Below, in pieces: positions 5,876 to 61,811 of a stretch of 64,000 bases of DNA. The position numbers were made by a program, and so were the translations under genes. The notes beneath the pieces were generated by a model. That model ran no database searches, was not told the DNA's origin, and worked only from the letters and a program-made list of their open reading frames with translations. The stretch is from Hydractinia symbiolongicarpus (Eukaryota; Cnidaria; Hydrozoa; Anthoathecata; Hydractiniidae), in contig NC_079878.1 of the NCBI RefSeq assembly GCF_029227915.1, positions 26,065,501-26,129,500 of the forward strand. The letters run 5' to 3'. The first letter of the stretch is position 1. The number at the start of each line of letters is the position of its first letter.

Positions 5876-8800
5876 ATGACGATAAGGCAAAAGCTTGGGA
5901 TCGCAAAAAAGAAACTTGAGACGAAAATTCTGGAAGTCAACACCTACATTAAAGATGCAAGTAATCAAAACGAAATAGACTTAGTTGCACATATAGATGA
6001 AACGACAGTAAAAATTGAGAATTTCAAGAAACATTTGAATAATTTGGAGAGCTCGATAACAGATAACTCAGAAGAAAACGAGAAATTCTGGAGTGATTAT
6101 GAGACATTTGACGATTTGTTGTCGATGGGAGAAGGGCTCCTTATCAAACTGAATTGTATCAAGCGGCTTTCAGATGAAAAACGAGAAGCTGAAGAACGAG
6201 AAAAACAACGCAAAGCCGACGAGCGAGAAAAAGAAAAGCAACGCGAAGCCGATGAACGAGAAAAAGAAAAGCAACGCGAAGCCGACGAACGAGAAAGAGA
6301 GAAACAAAGAATACATGAGCTGGAGAAATTGAAACTAGGAATGAGCGAAAAGGAGAAAGAGAGACAAGATCAATTGCAACTGGAAAAAATGAAGATCGAT
6401 GCGGATGAAAGAAGATTAAAAATTCAAGCAGATGAATCTGTTGAGAGGGAAAGAATGAACGTTGAGAAAATGAAAGTCGAAACTGAGGAGAAACTTCGTG
6501 TCATCGAGACAGAAAAAATATCTAAAACAAAAGTTGGTGTTCGTTTGCCAAAATTAGAACTAAGAAAATTTGATGGCGATGTCCTTAAATGGAGAGAATT
6601 TTGGGACACATATGAATCTACGATACACAATAACCCAGGGTTACAAGATGTTGACAAATTCAAGTATCTGAAATGCCATCTTTCCGGACCAGCGAGTGAT
6701 CTGATTGCTGGAATTGATATTACAAATACAAACTACGATATTGCAATCAAACTATTGGAGAAACGTTACAGCAGAAATCACGTGATGCGCGAAGCCCACT
6801 ATTCAAAACTTATCACACTTCAATCACCAACCTACAAAACAACGTCACTTAGGGCATTTCATGACGAAGCCGAAAAACACGTACGAGCGTTGGAATCCCT
6901 TGGGACTAACGTCAATACTCCTGAATTATTATATATTTTGAAATCAAAACTTCCACGATCCATTCTGGAAAGACTTCAACAACAAAAAGACAACAATAAG
7001 GAATGGACAATGGAGCTATTTAGAAAAGAGCTTCAAAACTACGTGGCGATGAAAGAAGACACAGAGTACCAATTGCAATTGAGCAAACCACCTTCAGAAG
7101 AAGAACCTCATCGCAAGCACAATAACAATTTCTACAGAGGTGATCTATCAATCTCAACTGGCCATTCACTCCTATCAAATGGGAGACGAAACAATAGACG
7201 AAAGAATACCTGCATTTTCTGCGAAGAAACCCACTGGAGCGACGAATGTCCGAAGTACACCACTATATCAGCCAGAAAAGAAATAATCAAAGGGCGCTGT
7301 TTTTCTTGCTTTAGCCCGAATCACCAATCAAAGGAATGCAAAAAGATGAAATCATGTTATCATTGTGGAGAATCAAGGCGACATCATCGAAGTTTGTGTC
7401 CTCAGAAGTTTCCGTCGAAAGTCGAGTTAAGTAATGAAGGAACGTTGCAACAAAGAGAAAGTGGTTTGATATCCGTTGGAGAGAAGACAGTCATGCAAAC
7501 GGCATTAGTCCAAGCGTCTAATCCTACAAACGCAACATTCATGGAAACAAGAATTTTACTTGACTGTGGTAGCAATCGTACATACATAACAAAGGAACTT
7601 TCAGAGAAATTACAGCTGAAAGAGATTGACAAAGAAACTGTAACTACGTACACTTTTGGCTGCAAGAAACCGAAAAGCTTCTTGTCAACCTTAGTAGAAT
7701 TAAATCTTCAGAAGAATGATGGAAAGCCGTTACTAATCAAAGCACGAGTTGTTCCACATATAACTGGGACGGTTGAAAGAACCCCCATCGACATAACTCG
7801 AAGAAGAAAATTGGAAAGTAATTTTGAGCTATCTGACACCCTACCTACGACCCTACAGACGTCAACCCTTGGCTTACTCATTGGAAATGACCACTATCAT
7901 GACATTGTACTACCAGAAAGGAAGAAAGTCGATAATGGTTTGTGTCTTATCAACTCTTTGTTTGGTTGGATCCTTAGTGGCAGAATTTCAGAGAATGAGA
8001 AGCACACCAGTGATGTGTCTATGTTTGTGATGACAAATACTACAGCTGATCAACCATTTGCAGAGATACAAAAGATGAAACCTCTAGATGAATGCGAAAA
8101 CCTTGAACCTGATATTGAAGCATTATGGAGCTTAGAAACTATTGGTATAGACACCAAGGACAAATCAGAGAGCAACGTATTACAAGCGTTCAAAGAAACA
8201 GTCAAAATGGAAAACGGAAGATATCAAGTTTCATGGCCTTGGAAGGAAGATGAACCTAATTTACCAGATAATTATGAACTATGTAATGGAAGATTAAAGT
8301 CTTTGTATAAGCGTTTGTGTGAGAAACCCCGACTACTTAAAAAGTATGATAAAACTATCAAAGAACAATTAGAAAGGAGCGTCATTGAAAGGGCCCCAAA
8401 AGAATATCAAGGAAGAGTCCACTACATCCCTCACCATGTCGTCGAAAATCCTGAGAAAGATAAGATTCGGATAGTTTATGACGCATCAGCCAAGACGAAA
8501 AAGAGCAACCAGTCCTTAAACGAATGTCTTCATCGAGGACCAGTGATATTAGAAGATCTTGCAGGGCTACTAATGAGGTTCAGAACCAAGAAGATTGGAT
8601 TGATTGCCGACATTGAAAAAGCATTTCTGCAAATTAGTATACAGCCTCAAGATCGCGATGTTACAAGATTCCTATGGCTAAAAGACATCAACCGTCCACC
8701 AACTAAGGCAAATCTTGAAGAATACCGCTTTACCCGAGTACCATTTGGCATCATCTCAAGTCCATTCTTACTCGCAGGAACCGTGCAAAATCATTTGGAA

Positions 8801-27100: not shown

Positions 27101-27657
27101 ACAAAATAATTTAAACATATTTTCCTTTAGATCCCAAGCCCATAGTTGGAGCACTAGTGGCGGTTGCTGGACGTTATTTGCTTAAACGTGTTATCAAATA
27201 TGCTGTGCGTCGATTACGCAGAAGAAGATATTACTCCAGACGCAGGCGTGTAACACGTACTTATCCATATTACTACCGCCGAAGAAGTATTTATTACCGA
27301 CGACGAGGTAGCTACAACCGGCGACGAACCAGCTTTCAACGAAGAAGAAGAAGCTATTACAGAAGACGAATCAGCAATTACCGACGTCGAAGTACTCGAA
27401 GACGAAGTATCTCCTATCGGCGACGAAGTCTCTATTACCGACGAAGAAGTAGCTCTTATCGACGACGAAGGAGCTCTTATCGGCGACGAAGAAGCTCTTA
27501 TCGGCGACGAAGAAGCTCCTATCGGCGACGAAGCAGATCCTATCGGCGACGTAGTAGCTCCTATCGGCGACGTAGTAACTCCTATCGGCGACGAAGTAGC
27601 TCCTATCGGCGACGAAGTAGCTTCTATCGGCGAAGAAGTATCTCCTATAGGCGATAA
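21173..27657 (+). CDS. Spliced gene for a secreted arginine/tyrosine/serine-rich protein (candidate cationic effector)
   Basis: Four exons join into one 251-residue frame: 21173-21230, 25670-25795, 26481-25525+1000 (that is 26481-26525), and 27131-27657. All three introns have GT-AG ends and phase 1. Exon 1 encodes a signal peptide (MSVLKIIALLCVVTTTTIN). Exon 2 is a polar spacer. Exon 3 is short and acidic (DEHELDEIASVSQQ). Exon 4 opens with PKPIVGALVAVAGRYLLKRV, which can form an amphipathic cationic helix, and then runs into about 140 residues of Y/R/S heptads (YRRRSSS type). Hydra arminins have the same order (signal peptide, anionic pro-part, cationic C-terminus) but are far shorter; I see no sequence-level proof of homology. 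Alternatives are a capsule or extracellular-matrix protein, or a secreted DNA/anion-binding protein. The ATG sits directly after a TTTATTTATTTAG acceptor. AATAAA at about 27855 is a plausible poly(A) signal. Confidence 0.75.
21659..21767 (+). mobile_element. Mini-Helitron in intron 1 of the arginine-rich gene
   Basis: It begins TCTATGTTACGTCTGTCACG after an A. It ends with the hairpin CACGTGGATTTTTCCACG followed by CGACTA and then T. The expected final G of CTAG is missing, so the last base has mutated or the end is variant. The interior matches the 2738-2875 copy (CACGCAAAAT, GTAGCGAGAC). Confidence 0.65.
22039..22342. mobile_element. Short, decayed relative of the piggyBac-type MITE
   Basis: The left end reads TTATTCGGTCCGGGGGAAGG with a GGAGAATCCGCCCCC hairpin. 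The right end reads GGACCGAGGGG followed by TTAA. Ends match the 12259-13004 element but the interior differs and is shorter. It lies in intron 1 of the arginine-rich gene. Confidence 0.6.
22922..22946. repeat. (TAGC)n microsatellite
   Basis: Six consecutive units of a self-complementary tetranucleotide inside intron 1. Confidence 0.85.
25010..25420. mobile_element. Internal fragment of the piggyBac-type MITE family
   Basis: The order of words CTGCATGGTTTTGACACTTACT, GGCACTTGTATG, CCTTTCAGAGG, CTCTATGAAATC and TCAGATTTTACCC follows the interior of the 12259-13004 and 28984-29763 copies, but no terminal inverted repeats remain. It is located in intron 1, just upstream of exon 2. Confidence 0.6.
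27250..27657 (+). repeat. 21-bp coding repeat array (YRRRSxS heptads)
   Basis: Within exon 4 the DNA is built from units such as AGTAGCTCCTATCGGCGACG. The last ones are nearly exact 21-bp copies and the first ones more divergent, as expected for an array grown by slippage or unequal exchange at its 3' side. The complementary strand is also open across 27214-27723 and would give a Ser/Pro/Ile-rich repeat; that is a by-product of the repeat unit. Confidence 0.85.
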
Positions 27658-42140: not shown

Positions 42141-42231
42141 CTACAAAAAAAAATAATAATGATAATAAAAAATTAAGAATAATCAAACCCCCTTGCTGAC
42201 ATAAGCCGGAAGTTGTGGTGCCGACTGCAAT

Positions 42232-42738
42232 TTACCTAACTTCTTCAGGGAAAAGGATGTAAGGTTGTACACCATTAAGCAAGCTTTGTTTGCAAGGGAC
42301 CACTGGGCTGTCGTTGCAATGAAACCACCTACCATGCACTTGGTTATAAGCAACAGTAGTGTAATGGCCATTGTTCTAATTTTCAGAGTGGTTAATTACA
42401 GCCCTTAAGTTGTAGTGCTTGCGACAAGAGACTTCACTGTCTACAGTGATAGGTATAGCAGCGGTGCCCGGGTAAGATGTGACAGGAGAGCAAACCTTAG
42501 ACACAAGACCTTTGTTATAGGCAAAGCGCTTTAATTGCAGAACCAAAATTGAACTGCACTCTGCGACCTGTTTTTCAACTGTTGCATTTTGATAACTATT
42601 GCAGTAGTGACAGAAGTACGAGTTAACACCCGACAATTCTTCGCTCTCCAAAAAGTTATCTATTGAAGATTGTACAGTCGATGTCAAGGGCAGTTGAAAA
42701 AATGGACTTACTTGCTCAGAGGTGCTAATATCATTAAA
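42232..42738 (-). pseudogene. USP (ubiquitin-specific protease) domain fragment, LINE copy 1
   Basis: On the minus strand the protein reads ESEELSGVNSYFCHYCNSY (finger with CxxC), ILVLQLKRFAYNKGLVSKV (the LQLKRF box) and RAVINHSEN. One TAG (42376-42378) follows, then the frame goes straight on with NNGHYTTVAYNQVHGRWFHC and NDSPVV...PYILFPEEVR to a TAA at 42232-42234. NGHY is the catalytic-His box and GRWFHCND the following Asp/Asn box of USP (peptidase C19) enzymes. The Cys box is missing because of the truncation. Apart from the single stop the C-terminal half is well kept, so this copy was functional in sequence until recently or the domain was under selection in the source element. Confidence 0.85.
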
Positions 42739-53431: not shown

Positions 53432-53726
53432 GACACTCACAACATCAACACTCACAACACCATCTAAGCCGACACAAAGAATACCGACAGTTACAACACC
53501 CACAGTCACAACACGGATAATAACAATGTTAGAAATAACGCATCTCAAATATGTACATCTTATAAGTGATTATGTTGAAAACCCTCAGTATTTTATTCTG
53601 AAATGTCAAAAAGCAGGCCTGCAAAGAGTTAGCACAAATCAACAAAAATAAGTTCTTTACACATTTTAAATATTTTCTTTCCCTTAAAAGCTTAAAATAA
53701 TTTACAAAGAGGTGGCAAGCCACCGC
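53432..53726. other. Non-coding spacer
   Basis: Short TCACAACACC-type repeats near 53435-53520; otherwise nothing recognised. Confidence 0.5.
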
Positions 53727-53942
53727 AATGATAAACTCAACCTGTTAGGTCTTTGGAAACAAGCTAGAGGTTGTACTCCTCTAGAGAATATGCCTCTAAA
53801 AGCACAAATCTCCCTTTTTACAAGGAATTAAAAAAAATATAAAAAAATAAAATAAAAAGGACGCAACACATTTGAAAAGATGAACAGAACTTTAACCAAG
53901 GGCAGGTAGGTTTCGACCCATATTTCTGAACCTAAGTACCCT

Positions 53943-54005
53943 GGATGTCTAGCTGGGTCACCTCGAAGAGGTCCGCGGACGGTCATCAGCAGAAACTAGA
54001 CATCC
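53943..54005 (-). other. Structured element in the LINE 3' region (copy 2)
   Basis: GGATGTCTAG (53943-53952) and CTAGACATCC (53996-54005) are perfectly complementary. Between them lie a CCG-CGGA-CGG hairpin and an ACCTC-GAA-GAGGT hairpin. Copy 1 has CTG-CAAA-CAG in place of the first hairpin, a compensating base-pair change. On the element strand a CTGATGA (copy 2) or CTGAAGA (copy 1) follows the first helix. Confidence 0.6.
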
Positions 54006-54064
54006 CTATCTTCCTAAAATTAACTTTGACCACTTTCTGTTCAACTGTGCTATTCTTTGTTTTT

Positions 54065-54310
54065 AACTCAGGTAATACGTGGAGTGGTTACTCTCCAAAG
54101 ACAAGATCATGTGTGATCAAACCCACCTGCTAATATTTTTTTATTTTATTAATTTATTTTTTGTTTAACTGGGGTAATAAGTGGAGTCGTCACTCTCCAA
54201 AGACAAGACCTAGTATGATCAAACCCACTTGCTAACTTAATTTTTATTTGATTTTGTTTTATTTTTGACTGGGGTAATAAGTGGAGTCGTCACTCTCCAA
54301 AGACAAGACT
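54065..54310. repeat. Three tandem hairpin units in the LINE 3' region (copy 2)
   Basis: Units of about 101 bp near 54068, 54169 and 54270, each with GTGGAGTCGTCACTCTCCAA (first unit slightly changed), AAGACAAGA and a CAAACCCACTTGCT-like end. Copy 1 has the same three. Confidence 0.8.
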
Positions 54311-54466
54311 GATTGTAGTCAAGCCCCCTTGCTGACTCATTCCGGTTAAAATATTTTTATCTCGGCTCTTCTAAAAAGAAAACATATGACTCGTGACTGT
54401 TAATAAGGCGGTCATCACAGAAAATTACTGCTTCATCGTTGCAATGTATCCACCTGTGGGCTATTA

Positions 54467-57400
54467 TCAACCGCAATGGTTGATAATAACCCTTAATTGA
54501 AAATTTTTACGAAATTTCACTTCTCCATCTACGGTGAAAGGTATGGAAAGGGTACCAGGGTAAGCAGTAATACGAGAGGCAATTTTTGACACAAGGCCGT
54601 TGGCACTGGCAAAACGTTTTAGCTGTAAAATGAGATGGGAACCGCACGACACTACCTCTTTTTCAACTAGAGCAGTTTGATGAGCGTTGCAAATATGACA
54701 GAAGTAGGCGTTGGTGTCTGACAACTCCTCGCTTTCGAAGAAATTATCTAAGGAAGATTGTAACGTAGGGTGCAGAGAAAGTTGGATGCATGGTGCTATA
54801 ACTTCTGAGGAGCTGGTAATATGAAATGAATTGCAAGTGGTTGATGTCTTGTTGTCAATACTAAAAAGACTTCCAAGAAATGGAAAGTCTAATGACAGAC
54901 CAGGTAGGAGATATTCAAGTACCTCGGGGACGTCGTGCTGAGCAAAGATATTAAATGCACTTCCCTTCGCAGCTGAGATATGATGTTTCATAGCACGCAA
55001 AAAATGGGAGGGATCAACTGGACTTCTAGAAACAGCCAAACTTTGAAGAACACCTACAAATGCTTCGCCAAACTTTGAGGTTGTTTTGCTGACAGAAATG
55101 GCTTCTTTAACTTTTGGAAAGTTATAAAAACATTGTAAGATGGAGTTTGCATAACATGTGTTTCCCAAGTCTTTTAGACCGCTATTCCTAAAATCAGGGC
55201 TAGATGGCAATGCGACTGTTGTTTTGGACGACCTTGTAGCAAGTTTTTCGGGTTTTTTGATTTTACAAGGTTTTGTGTGATTTGCGGAAGATTTCTCAGG
55301 GGTTTTTGATTTTTTACATTCCATATTTGTAACAGAAGAAACTTCAGGAATGATTGGGGCCTTTTCAGGCTCAAACCAAGTGGTAGAATTTCGAGACATC
55401 CAGATGTAAAAAGAAGCACTCATGGAGGTAAAAGTTAGGGATTTTAATAGGGAACGTAAAGGCTTGTTAGGGAAACCAACGCGACGAAAACAGGTCCTTA
55501 CTGATACTGAACAGAAACCCCTTGCACCCACCTCAATGGCAGAGAAATGCACGATCCATCCATTGTTTTTCATAGCATAACAAAGTGAAGAATATTTGCT
55601 AAGCTTTCGTTTGTGCCAATATTCCGTGTTCTCTTCACATGGACAAGTCAGTTCTAACATAATTACAGTTTTGGAAGAACTACATATTAATAACACGTCT
55701 GGGCGTAGTTGTGTTATTGCAATGTATGGTGGAACAACTAAAACGGAATCTAAATCTTACAGTATTTTCCAATCGGAAGCAAGGTGAAGAAGGCCTGGAC
55801 ACTTTGTATGCCTCTTCCTAGATGGTGATTGACCGGCCGGAATGAAATTAATTTTGTTGCACTTGGAAACCTTAAGAGGTTCATATGATACCAAAAACTC
55901 TTTTAATGCCTTAACCAAAACTATTAAAACCGAGTCATGACGGTATGTGTATCTACCCTGCGTAAGGGAGGGCCTACAGGCACCCAATATGTGAGAGACA
56001 TTTGAGGATGGTTTCTTGCACAGAATGCAACTTTTGTCTTTCTCAATTCTCCATCTCACAAGATTGGTTGGAGAGGGAAGGGTGTCGTAGGTTGCCCCTA
56101 TACAAAAGGAAGTTAGAAATTGTGGCAGTGAAAGAATTGTTCTCCAAGATAAATCATTTTTCACATAAGAGCACCATTTCGTCCAATTGCCTTGCAAATG
56201 CAACTGTACAGCTCTGGCATGGTAATATCTTCTTCATTTTCTTCAATGATTTGGAAACAAGCTTTCGGTAAGCATAAGTGCCTTTTGGTGGTATATTCTT
56301 GTGGTCTAAGAGCCCTAAGCCAGCTCGCCCAGTCTGATGCAAACGTAAAATCCTTTTGAAATTTAGCTGACTATCCGCCGAAAGTACTACCTCACTAACT
56401 TTCCAATTTCCAGCTTTCAAATCTGGTACGCACTTAGACACACAAGGGTCGACAGAATCTCTTAGTAACAGATGTCCACTGATTTTGGCAGATTTGAGAA
56501 CAGATGCAAGACCTTTCAGGGGAAGAGGACAAGGCGATGTCGAGGAATATAAGGAAATGTTGGAAATTGAATGATGTAGTTTTAACCATTTTCTAATGAA
56601 AACAGAAAATCTTTGCTCTAGTTTTGTGATAGTAGATAGAGAAACTTCATAAATTAATAATGGCCAGCGGATTCTGGGAATTAACAGATGGTGTAAGAAC
56701 CAAACCTTATGGACCCCTTTATGAAAGGACCTGTCTATAGCCATAAGTTTGTCTTCGGCATCATTTAGAAATTTTTGTATTGCAGCAGAATCAGACAAGG
56801 ATGAGTTTATTGTTCTGCCTAAAAACGTAATTGGATTAGAATGAATGGATGGAATTTTCTCGCTGCCAACTGTAAACGGTGAACTTTGGACGACTTTTCC
56901 CTTATCAATAACAATGCTGCGTGATTTAGAAGGCCTAAACGACATGCCTAAACGACATGCCTACCCAATCAAGAGCTATTGTACACCTGTTTAATAAATT
57001 TCGAGTACTTGGAATTGACGTGGACATTAAGAACATATCATCCATAAAAGCTTTTATTGGGGGTTGGTCTGGGATTTTGTTTTTATTACCTTCAGCATCA
57101 ATAAGGCCGGGGGTAACACACACATACTCAAAAATAACGTTTATAGCTGCAAGAAATAGTATAATGGGAAGTGTCAGCCGATAAAGATTCTCCTACAGTG
57201 TTGATGCCAACTGGAAGGAGCAGAAGCCGAAAAAGACTTACTCCACAGGCTGTCGTAGTATAGCTGTATGAGCCTTATCTATGATTCTGGTACGCCATAG
57301 CGTCTGAGAGCCATAAAAATCAGCTTGTGCGGAACTGAAGGGTACGCATTAGCAATATCAAGCCAAATGGCTGAAAGTGAAGAATGTTGTGCCTTCGCCT

Positions 57401-57926
57401 TCTTAAGTGTGGACCAAACAATAGACATGTGTTCCCAGCAACCCGGAACTTTTTCCATACAACCTTTTTGAATGGAAGTATTAATGAAGTTGTTTTTCTT
57501 TATAATATGCGATTCTAACCGCTTGGAAATCAAACTAAAAAAGAGCTTTCCTTCAACATTCAGAAGAGCTATGGGGCGAAAATCCTTTATGTTGGAAGGA
57601 CAAGGTGTGTTGTTTTTAGGTATATAAACTTCTGATGCACTTCTCCATTGCACAGGAATAAAAGACTTCTTTAGACAAGCTTGAAAAATGTTACACAGAA
57701 ACGATGCAATATGAGGACAATTCTTATATACTGTGTAAGGAATTTGGTTCAGCCTAGGAGAAGAAGTATTTCTACGAGAAAGTAGGACAGCTTGGAAATC
57801 CTTGAACTTTAGCTTGGAAGATTCGAAAGGTGAGACTAGATTTTGTGGTGAAGGCAATCCAGGGAGATCTGAAAGAGGTATATGGCGTGAGGGATCGTTC
57901 AAGGTTGAATGTTTGTGTGAATCCAT
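54467..57926 (-). pseudogene. RT - RLE endonuclease - USP polyprotein of the LINE (copy 2)
   Basis: Minus strand. 57926-57279: RT N-terminal motifs (KDFRPIALLNVEGKLFFSLI, IQKGCMEKVPGCWEH, SAIWLDIANAYPSVPHKLIF). 57123-56935: the RT active site as KAFMDDMFLMS, followed by a 14-bp duplication that shifts the frame. 56945-56154: thumb and linker (ITFLGRTINSSL). 56203-55757: zinc motif CILCKKPSSNVSHILGAC then GRYTYRHDSVLIVLV. After one in-frame TAA come LRPDVLLICSSSKTVIMLEL, TCPCEEN, KYSSL and IEVGARGF, the RPD/ELT endonuclease signature of R4/NeSL/Hero-type LINEs. The same frame (55696-54467) continues into a Ser/Lys-rich linker and a USP domain: Cys box GLKDLGNTCYANSILQCFY, QHDVPEVLEYLL, CHICNAHQTALVEKEV and LILQLKRFA, ending RVIINHCG. 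Stops follow, and the His box is GGY instead of GHY. Confidence 0.88.
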
Positions 57927-57960
57927 TTCGTCCTGGGCAACTGCAAGTTTTATTGAACAT

Positions 57961-59298
57961 TTGGGATCTAAAATATTTTTTCTAGCCTGATAAGGATTCT
58001 TAGAAAAAGCCCCGCGTGCATTCGAGATTTTTCAACGTCTTTTCCTATTCCGTTCACCTCTTCGAAGTAACCTTAACTTGGCCATTATATCCTCTCCCGC
58101 AAAGTTACACAAAATGTAAAAATCAACCAGTTAAAAACACAAAATTTCTTTTTTAGTATGATGATCCATAATGCAAATTACCAACAATTTTAAACCTAAA
58201 TGTCAAAAAATCAATAAGCAAAGAATAAACTTGAATCAACAAACATTGTATATATACGGTTCATAAACAAACGTTTACACAAAATGTAAAACAGATCGAT
58301 TGTTGAGAAACACATCTAAATCAACAAAATAAGTTCATTCAGCATGTCGTATATTGACATTACCCATTAATCTTCCACAAAAAGGTTATGAACCACATTA
58401 AAATTTAAAAAAATCAGTGATTTCAGTGCATGCAGTCCACCCGTTTAGATTACAAAATATAAAAAACAAAAACACTTTCAGTCAGAACATTAAGTAATTT
58501 TCTTATCATCAGCAAACATTTATCCCTACAAAATTTTGTAAAATTTCAAGAAAAACAAAAACGTGAAAGCATGGAATTTTCTTCCACCAAAAATGAAATC
58601 ACATACAGTTAGTTCTCCCCAACAATAGTTTATATTACGAAATATAAGACATCAGCTTATACAACAGCTTACAGTGAAGTCTGATTCTACCAAAAACTTC
58701 CACAAAATTTTAAAAAAACAGCATTTTGCAACACCACGGCTAGTTTTCCACTAATAAACAAAATCGTGTAGCAAAACAAAACAGAGGGTGTGATATGATT
58801 CCAAATTCTTTCTTGAAGTATCTTTCCTCATGACACATTTACATTATGTTTAGATAAGTATAACATAGTAAATAAAGTAGGTTATATATTTTGTAAACTG
58901 AGTTGAATTTTAAACCAAGTTGACCAAAAGTCAAGTTGTTTCAAAGCAAGTATTCATGCGCGTATTATAGTAAACCAAGTTAACTATTTCGAGTTATTAT
59001 TTATTTTATAAAACTAAGTTGACCGCATGCATCAATTTAACTCGCTCCATTGTTCTTAGCAAAGTTCCCGATCTATTAAAGTCTGGATAATGAGGTAACA
59101 GACTAAATTGTGTTCATAATAGGGTTAGGTGTTTGATGAGACATTTCGCATCAAGCTAGAATATATGTACAAGGATTTTACATTTCAAGTACAAAATGAG
59201 TGTGTTGTGGCTGAAATTCTTTCAACAAACTCACCGTCCCTGTAGACAAGATACTTCAGTGCAGCTTGCTGTATTGTAAACCTTTTTCATTAAGTAAT
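57961..59298. other. AT-rich non-coding stretch
   Basis: No gene recognised. The word ACAAAATGTAAAA recurs with variation (near 58107, 58279 and 58455), and AAACCAAGTTGAC or close variants occur three times between 58910 and 59035. It may be an unrecognised 5' part of the LINE or older repeats. Confidence 0.5.
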
Positions 59299-59802
59299 AG
59301 ACCTATTTCTGTGTGACGTCACATTGTTGTCATTACCAGGCCTCAACGCGGACTGGAGTCAAAACAAACCGCGATTTGCTGTGAAATGCATAAATAATTG
59401 CTTCTTCCTTGTTCTCAGATATACTGAAATAAATAACAAGCTTGTTTTCCCTCTGACTTGTATCTTCTATAATAAATCTAATGTTTTGATTCTGTTTTTT
59501 TTCAACTGGATTGTAAAGACGAAGGTTTCAGAAAAATATAAAAACAATCATTATGGCTACGTATAACAATATCATTTTCTCTTTATAGGATCTTTTGATT
59601 GGTTGCAACGAAAAGGTGTGGGGTATCGAGTCAAACATGATTGCGATTTTTTTTTTCTAGGAACCAATCATTTTCCACTTCAAAGTTGAATGTGCACGTG
59701 AGTCTAAAAAATGCTCACGTTTTTCAAAAAAACAACAACTATGTTTCTAGAAGCAAAAAAAAGAAGAAAATTCCCGCCTTTTGGATTAGAGTGTGATTGA
59801 AG

Positions 59803-61811
59803 ATGGTTGAAATATGGAAAGAAGAATCCCCGTATTTTAAAACACTAATCTTAGAAGAAGATCGTTTGCATTTTAAAAAAAAATTGACACTCGAAAATGA
59901 GGTTCTTTTAGAAGACCCTTTCAACATAGAGGAGGGTAACTGGACCACTGATGTTAAACAGCTGCCTGATGTTTGTTACCCTGATATTTGGAACTATCTC
60001 ATTGAAACGTCAAGTGAATTCACAAAAGACAAAATGAAAGCTTACAAATCCCTTGAATCGTACAACTTTTTTGTTTCGGGACACGTACATCAAGTTTATA
60101 TTCACAAGATTGAACACCAAAATTTTTCTTTTGTCAAAACTAAAGTTTTACCCAGTCAACGACAAGGCCAGAAAGAAGTTCTCTATGAAGTTTGGGTTTG
60201 CATACACAAAAGTGGATGGATATTAAGTGCCAATTGTACTTGTATGTCGGGGTAAGAAACATAAGATAAAAAATGATTTGTATTGCTCATATTGCTCATT
60301 TCTTTCACTATTAAATAGAATGTTTAAAAACATAAAAATTAAAACTAATTAATCAGAGTAAGGTATTATATCATACATATATATCCTAACAAATAAGAAG
60401 TAAAAATTTTTATACTTTCAGGCTCGGTTCAGCTTGCAGTCACACTGGGGCATTACTATTCAAATTGCAAGCATGCACTCAGTTTGAGCTCAACAAAGAG
60501 GATGCTTGTACTAGTAAGCTGTGTGAATGGAACAAGGCAAGAAAGCGTGCCCATCCTGCACCCTTACATAAAATCAATTTTAAACGTCCCAAGAAGAACG
60601 AGATATTACCTAAAATTGCCAGCCCATTCAAAGGAACTCTTGAAGGATTTAGTCGTGCAGATCCTGTTAAATTTTGTCATGACTCCCAAATTACAATATT
60701 AAAAGAACTAAAGCAAATAACTCCTAATGCAGCAGTTCTAACATGTATCAGTCTCAAACTTCGTGATGACCCTAGTTCAGGTGAAGATACAGATACTGCA
60801 TATGAAACTGAAGAAAATACTGTGCCTAAACTGTTAACCAGCTTTTTTGACCCATGTAGTGTGAACTACAGTGAACAAAAGATTTCACAAGTTTGTGATA
60901 AACTTTACAAAAATTACAAAGGACAAACAGATCAAAAACAATATGATAATTTAACTAAAATAACTAAAGACCAAAGCCAATCAAATAAATGGATGCTTTA
61001 TCGTGCTGGAAGAATCACTTCATCCAACTGCAAGAAAGCATATACATGTAATATTCAAAAACCAGCAATTTCAACAATAAAATCTATCATGCAATACAAT
61101 GAAAATATTTCAACTCCATGAATGAAATATGGTAAAGAATCAGAGCCAAAAGCCTTCAAAAGTTTTAATGAAATGATGAAAACTAAGCATGAAAATTTTA
61201 CAGTGGATATTACTGGTCTTCATATCAATGAAAAATATCACCATATTGAAGCAAGTCCTGATGGCCTCACGTTTTGTAAATGCCATGGAAAAGGACTACT
61301 AGAAATCAAATGTCCCTTCAATTTTCAGCATGGCTAAGAAAACTATAAGACCCATAAAAACTGTCCAATAACAAATTATGACAAAATGAAGGAAACCCAT
61401 GAATATTACTTTCAAATGCAACTCCAAATGTTGGTGACAGAAAGGAATTATTGCTACTTTTTTGTTTGGTCCAAAAAAAATTTTATATCAATATGTGTTG
61501 ATAAAAATGAATTATTTTGTGAATCACTAAGAGCAAAAATTGACAGCGTGTTTTTCAAAATTATACTTCCAGAGCTAGTATCACGTAAAAATGACCAAGC
61601 AAACGATGAGTCTCAAAAGCTGTATTGTTATTGCAAACGTCCCTGTTTTAAGCCAATGATCGCTTGTGATAATGCTGAATGTAAAATTACATGGTTTCAC
61701 TATGCATGTGTCAACGTACTCAGGACACCTCAAGTAAATAAACAATGGTTTTGTCCTGATTGTGTAGGACCAAAAGGCAAAAAGATTACCAAAAATAAAC
61801 AAAGTAAATGA
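59803..61811 (+). pseudogene. SWIM - YqaJ nuclease - PHD protein of the ISL2EU-like transposon
   Basis: Exon 1 is 59803-60251 and exon 2 starts at 60422 (GT-AG intron inside the SWIM zinc finger). The joined finger reads CTCMSG then LGSACSHTGALLF, a CxCxnCxH pattern. In exon 2 the YqaJ-type nuclease has YRAGRITSSNCKKAY, KYGKESEPKAFKSF, HIEASPDGL, GLLEIKCPF (D and ExK of the PD-(D/E)XK fold) and YFQMQLQMLV. A PHD finger follows (CYCKRPCFKPMIACDNAEC, WFHYACV, WFCPDC). Two in-frame stops, TGA 61119-61121 and TAA 61335-61337, break an otherwise continuous frame. The protein would process DNA ends during transposition and perhaps read histone marks; this role is inferred. Confidence 0.85.

Follow-up and report, generated by a model that had tools for sequence, protein, structure and literature searches.

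A decayed RLE-type LINE of Hydractinia symbiolongicarpus from a lineage with a C-terminal ubiquitin-specific protease domain

The window analysed here, 64,000 nt of Hydractinia symbiolongicarpus DNA (NC_079878.1, positions 26,065,501-26,129,500), carries on its minus strand a long interspersed nuclear element (LINE) of the type that encodes a restriction-like endonuclease (RLE), followed by a ubiquitin-specific protease (USP) domain. We propose, with a probability of roughly 0.6, that this decayed copy belongs to a large RLE-LINE lineage in which the USP was captured once at the C-terminus, after the RLE, has been kept catalytically competent, and likely works as a cis-acting deubiquitinase. 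Proteases of the ubiquitin-like system have been described in other RLE-type LINEs; what differs here is the protease family (USP, peptidase family C19) and its C-terminal place. That the key parts of the domain were preserved over a very long evolutionary time suggests that this element family interferes with the protein-tagging system of its host.

Domain organization of the window copy

A minus-strand frame of 429 codons without stop (55756-54470) begins with the RPD..ELT motif of the endonuclease and runs into the USP without interruption, as the first-pass annotation had read it from the letters alone. Pfam UCH (PF00443) matches residues 193-429 of this frame with 62 bits against a cut-off of 23.9 (E 8.9e-17), UCH_1 matches it as well (E 1e-4), and farther upstream, still on the minus strand, RVT_1 matches the reverse transcriptase (RT; Table 1). 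RT, thumb and zinc knuckle are found in other frames because stops and frameshifts have accumulated in this copy; hence the word polyprotein, used in the first-pass annotation, is true of the single frames of intact relatives and not of the window copy itself. The match to zf-RVT (PF13966) spans 56233-55760, and such matches stay under the cut-off in the window and in the relatives scanned alike. Between families A and B the amino acid identity is 27-37% in the linker that joins RLE and USP, against 63-66% in the RLE. Relative to related copies, about 37 bp are gone between 54471 and 54458, the stretch that contains the catalytic-His (GHY) box; judged from its sequence, the USP of the window copy is non-functional.

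The copy extends beyond 54467-57926, the interval to which it had first been assigned. At the 5′ side, blastn matches end at 58095 in all three genome stretches that reach there (L048, L051 and L060), and on the 3′ side 53694 is the end of the matches for 10 out of 20 genome stretches compared, most of them at 90-97% identity.

Table 1. Features of the USP-bearing LINE copies in the window (all coordinates are window positions; UTR, untranslated region; ORF, open reading frame)
Feature	Position	Strand	Basis or remark
Whole LINE copy	53694..58095	-	5′-truncated at 58095, 3′ end 53694; blastn limits
Reverse transcriptase, first part (RVT_1)	57282..58031	-	Pfam PF00078, E 9.5e-8
RT part with FMDD catalytic motif, other frame	56950..57192	-	ORF; tblastn with P0066, P0060
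RT thumb / connector, third frame	56229..56948	-	tblastn, with P0060 and P0066 among the queries
Zinc knuckle of CCHC type (zf-RVT-like), RHD motif	55760..56224	-	PF13966 24 bits, under cut-off 27.5
RLE core, RPD..ELT	55376..55756	-	Residues 1-127 of the 429-aa frame
RLE-USP linker, weakly conserved	55187..55375	-	Amino acid identity between families A and B
USP domain, Cys box GNTCYANS, cut before catalytic His	54470..55186	-	UCH E 8.9e-17; alignment A2
USP C-terminal remnant, another frame	54369..54455	-	tblastn with P0001, P0004, P0005, P0106
3′ UTR tandem repeat, period ~100 bp	54051..54337	-	TRF 54056-54337; blastn
Second copy, more strongly 5′-truncated	~42735-41622	-	USP tail 42726-42238 and 3′ UTR

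Copies in the Hydractinia genome

In the 480.9 Mb assembly (76 contigs), the 429-aa protein has at least 111 matches (98 of 1,372 first-look candidates scored), and P0113, a relative for which the protein list gives RVT_1 and UCH, has at least 39 (35 of 3,585 candidates scored). Nine of the P0113 matches are stop-free with near end-to-end coverage, their frames measuring 1,345-1,426 amino acids, and three more contain one stop. In five of 20 fetched stretches (L045, L047, L048, L051 and L052) a single frame spans RLE, Cys box and His box. Other genomic copies therefore retain the USP, on whose absence elsewhere the first-pass annotation had been ready to abandon its proposal. Over the 20 stretches the 5′ limits varied and the 3′ limit was common to at least half; varied 5′ truncation together with one 3′ end fits the expectation for a LINE.

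The 3′ flanks vary among the copies, and single-site target specificity was rejected on account of this diversity. After the common end ..AAATTATTTT most flanks begin with C, often CT; the window copy is followed by AAG. The initial C or CT could still belong to the element, as its terminal bases, or could reflect a short preference at the target. By eye, the DNA just 3′ of L018/L047, of L036/L062 and at one L042 junction looks like the USP-coding part of other such elements, as in nested insertions.

The second copy in the window starts within the USP (tblastn with P0001, E 2e-36), and its UCH match of 22.7 bits is slightly under the cut-off of 23.9. Its 3′ UTR contains the repeat common to both copies, with 86% identity by blastn.

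Relatives and domain order

A protein search with a read-through of the broken window protein found 144 proteins; the precomputed Pfam annotation of the best 120 gives RVT_1 together with UCH for 57 of them. The protein lists used, the best 120 of 144 and the best 120 of 203, are ranked by similarity to USP elements, and rows with a USP are consequently over-sampled. RVT_1 was present in all six full-length relatives scanned. The four of USP type have the order RT, zinc knuckle (under the cut-off) and UCH at the end, the UCH of P0106 reaching 125.6 bits against the cut-off of 23.9, and the Pfam scan found no Ulp1 domain (PF02902) in these four. The USP-less relative ends after the RLE, and the Ulp1-bearing relative P0197 has its protease near the N-terminus, at residues 222-388.

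The C-terminal CCHC knuckle, the RHD motif and the K/RPD..D/E endonuclease are the motif names of RLE-type LINEs. In alignment A1, of 32 relatives, C879, C882, H891, C896, R908, H909, P988, D989 and E1004 are invariant, which includes the CCHC and RHD columns; the P-D and E columns are invariant in both A1 and A2. Two AlphaFold models, both of relatives, were used for structure searches. The RT-RLE model, of P0129, has R2 and L1 ORF2p as its best matches, and its RLE part aligns to the end of the R2 structures. By its RT, its CCHC, RHD and RLE motifs and its 5′-truncated copies with a common 3′ end, the element is an RLE-type LINE, and the description of its protein as ending in a USP is supported by the other copies and by diverged families.

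Some further observations concern the sampled proteins. P0154, P0157 and P0170 have about 690-840 residues after the RLE motif, against the usual ~420, and the extra stretch may hold another domain. Among the matches listed, three of the USP-bearing proteins with an organism name (P0003, P0012 and P0105) come from Hydractinia, and the remaining one, P0145, is filed under a bacterial metagenome-assembled genome (MAG), probably by contamination; the named rows without USP are from fish, scallops and lancelets. The Hydractinia gene models P0003 ('17-like protein 6') and P0012 ('51-like'), which bear the names of host ubiquitin hydrolases, are fragments of such elements, and the start of P0012 looks by eye like an antisense reading of the USP tail (window 42205-42408, plus strand). 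Of 13 loci on prokaryotic contigs, one (L001, in a MAG) matches query residues 55-346, on the RLE side; in the other 12 (L002-L013) the USP region is matched and the RLE part is not, and their contigs are assigned to bacterial MAGs, intracellular groups (Dependentiae, Holosporaceae, Amoebophilaceae) being represented among them. Among viral contigs 20 stretches matched a pattern, and none of these encodes a relative.

The USP domain

Over 97 complete USP domains the catalytic Cys is present in 97 and the His in 95, and the full set of Cys, His and Asp/Asn in 92, the window copy being without its His box. The structure search with the USP model of a relative returned a USP fold with the full catalytic fold (50 matches listed). 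With UCH above the cut-off and the catalytic residues in place, the domain is, on sequence features, a member of the USPs, peptidase family C19. It shares with the cellular USPs (USP2, USP8, USP15, USP36, USP21 and USP46) the full catalytic fold, the Cys-His-Asn/Asp set and the zinc-binding CxxC pairs, and differs from them in being fused to RT-RLE, in its compactness (~290 residues) and in having mostly Asn as the third residue. We infer that the USP of intact members is catalytically competent, with ubiquitin as its substrate.

Phylogeny of the RT-RLE part

Trees of the RT-RLE part were built first with 99 rows and then with 163 rows plus R2 as outgroup (stretch 9nl3, which sits on a very long branch). 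P0212, a chimeric gene model, was dropped, as were rows with an RT-RLE part shorter than 660 residues (99-row tree) or 740 residues (163-row tree), and Ulp1-bearing rows stood in for NeSL. Rows with a USP group together in both trees. In the larger one, the smallest clade holding all 70 of them has 97 rows (70 with USP, 22 without, 5 unknown; support by the Shimodaira-Hasegawa-like approximate likelihood-ratio test, SH-aLRT, 99). No USP was detected in its sister clade of 57 rows, which comprises 44 rows classed as without, 4 of unknown state and all nine Ulp1-bearing rows. A mixture-model tree, thinned by removing close relatives (from 58% identity upward) and all rows whose state was unknown, gave a USP clade of 29 rows (25 with USP, 4 without; SH-aLRT 99) and a sister of 17 rows without USP.

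Within the USP clade a nested group of 14 rows and another of 4 (3 without USP, 1 unknown) are USP-less, and their position in the tree reads as losses. Single USP-less rows that neighbour USP rows, such as P0129, P0168, P0173, P0184 and P0109, are likely truncated models rather than losses, as judged from their ends. Some related families are without the USP, either in the nested groups or in these apparently truncated rows. Over 50 rows, all with a complete USP, distances along the USP tree track those along the RT-RLE tree (correlation of patristic distances 0.88, 0 of 2,000 shuffles; slope 1.6). The simplest account of the sequences would be one capture, a long co-inheritance and at least two losses.

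Evolutionary constraint and the points that weigh against a single, conserved capture

Comparison of the window family with a second family (L063, L064) gave a dN/dS of 0.13-0.17 for the RLE, and for the USP a dN of 0.36-0.40 with synonymous sites saturated. These between-family values indicate constraint on both domains in the source lineages, looser on the USP than on the RLE.

Several results have to be set against the reading proposed above: (i) on the 163-row tree parsimony requires 8 switches between presence and absence of the USP, in which gain and loss are not distinguishable, and several of the 8 hang on single rows that look truncated; (ii) the USP comparison takes in just one cellular row, which leaves a single clade of element USPs among cellular USPs presumptive; (iii) among 28 young copies of the family, counting that of the window and leaving out the segmental duplicates L034 and L039, dN/dS is only mildly below 1 in the USP (0.68, 95% interval 0.54-0.91) and amounts to 0.78 (0.50-1.29) in the linker and 0.91 (0.70-1.19) in the RLE; (iv) over the 97 domains the third triad residue is mostly Asn (75), otherwise Asp (19) or Ser (3); and (v) the results fit protection of the element's own protein and action on other ubiquitin targets alike. 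The within-family values near 1 are mostly explained by drift, most differences having arisen after insertion.

Other features of the window

On the plus strand, open frames at 59797-61811 adjoin the element; two of them have weak matches, both under the cut-off, to an alkaline-exonuclease profile (E 0.002) and to a PHD finger (E 0.002), and together the frames are possibly another mobile gene. Tandem repeats occur at 27401-27654 (21 bp period) and 6199-6307 (33 bp period); both periods are multiples of three, and the repeats possibly lie within coding sequence.

Proposed mechanism and alternatives

In intact members one protein unites RT, thumb, CCHC zinc knuckle, RLE, linker and USP. By analogy with R2, target-primed reverse transcription would fall to the RT and the RLE, a process in which the DNA is nicked, the nick primes and the element RNA is copied. 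The USP, held on a variable linker after the endonuclease, would provide an accessory activity aimed at the host, since its catalytic parts are conserved, it evolves faster than RT-RLE, and it is absent from nested groups without visible damage elsewhere. Most likely it would strip host-added ubiquitin in cis from the element's own protein or ribonucleoprotein, resulting in a longer half-life or a higher nuclear dose of the element protein. Such a cis-protective role is what we infer for the domain.

The main rival to cis protection places the active deubiquitinase at the insertion site, where it would act on ubiquitinated histones (H2A/H2B) or on repair proteins, PCNA or FANCD2 for example, so that nicked DNA and cDNA flaps evade chromatin barriers or repair. 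Fusion directly after the endonuclease would bring the USP to the nick, and the complex of USP1 on FANCD2-ubiquitin and the SAGA subunit Ubp8 are among the 50 structure matches; they stand, however, at ranks 18 and 48, behind other USPs, and therefore give no pointer to the substrate. The sequence likewise carries no substrate signal, and nested groups that otherwise look complete do without the USP. We regard action at the insertion site as possible, though the less probable place for the activity. The first-pass annotation had put forward both roles, shielding of the element protein and an effect on chromatin, as possibilities. Similarly tentative is a wider proposal, in which an ancient and distinct LINE clade would be defined by a once-captured active deubiquitinase that travels with the endonuclease to the nick and clears ubiquitin from chromatin or repair factors, allowing reverse transcription and second-strand synthesis to finish; LINEs would then have gained control of ubiquitin-family tags twice, through the N-terminal Ulp1 of NeSL and the C-terminal USP described here.

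The USP, a cysteine-protease fold placed last in one long protein, might also free parts of the element's protein by processing, in the manner of viral polyprotein proteases. USPs cleave after the Gly-Gly end of ubiquitin-like folds. No ubiquitin-like Pfam domain was found in six full-length relatives, and LxGG occurs as a single match in three of five relatives (in the N-terminal region, the zinc-knuckle region and the USP) and not in the other two, with no recurrent place. Self-cleavage of a polyprotein was rejected on these grounds, which makes a processing role very improbable. Binding of ubiquitin without catalysis might be read from the third triad site, where 78 of 97 domains have Asn or Ser instead of Asp; Asn is, however, accepted as the third catalytic residue in family C19, and with Cys and His almost invariant a mere binding module is very improbable. 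Finally, automatic gene models do name such fragments host USPs (P0003 and P0012), but a host gene or pseudogene joined to one LINE copy by chance, the alternative raised in the first-pass annotation, is refuted by an identical fusion position in many diverged families with single full-length, stop-free frames, by further genomic copies, and by the presence of the USP in 5′-truncated copies with the common 3′ UTR and 3′ end.

Comparison with known elements

OTU-type or other deubiquitinase domains occur in mobile elements, and R2 ends after its RLE. The R2 elements of Bombyx, Taeniopygia and Platysternon show ~18% identity to the RT-RLE model of the relative. Full-text literature searches, in which all terms were required together and which mostly excluded subscription journals, with Repbase outside their reach, returned no LINE with a USP or deubiquitinase. 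A close parallel is NeSL, an RLE-type LINE whose one protein joins RT, zinc finger and RLE and, in some members, a cysteine protease of the ubiquitin-like system; in the available sections of PMC4640811 an N-terminal Ulp1-like domain is described for nematode NeSL and for one Utopia family, not for all Utopia, in agreement with what the first-pass annotation had stated of NeSL. There the protease is Ulp1 (C48) and N-terminal, whereas in the Hydractinia-type elements it is a USP (C19) and C-terminal. R2 inserts in 28S rRNA genes (PMC4640811, same sections), whereas the copies of the USP elements have diverse 3′ flanks. HERO, an RLE-type clade with many non-specific families in the same source, resembles them, by description alone, in the non-specific insertion that these flanks suggest, and differs in that the available text describes no USP for it.

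Significance

Host ubiquitin ligases are suspected to limit LINE proteins and LINE integration. A LINE-borne USP would make that limitation directly testable, for a single catalytic residue parts a tagging-resistant element from a sensitive one. Hydractinia is a laboratory model animal, and its genome contains stop-free copies. For annotation the family carries a warning, fragments of the element having been entered as host USP genes (P0003, P0012). The USP clade, its nested USP-less relatives and the Ulp1-bearing relatives form a natural series in which the responses of mobile elements to host tagging can be compared.
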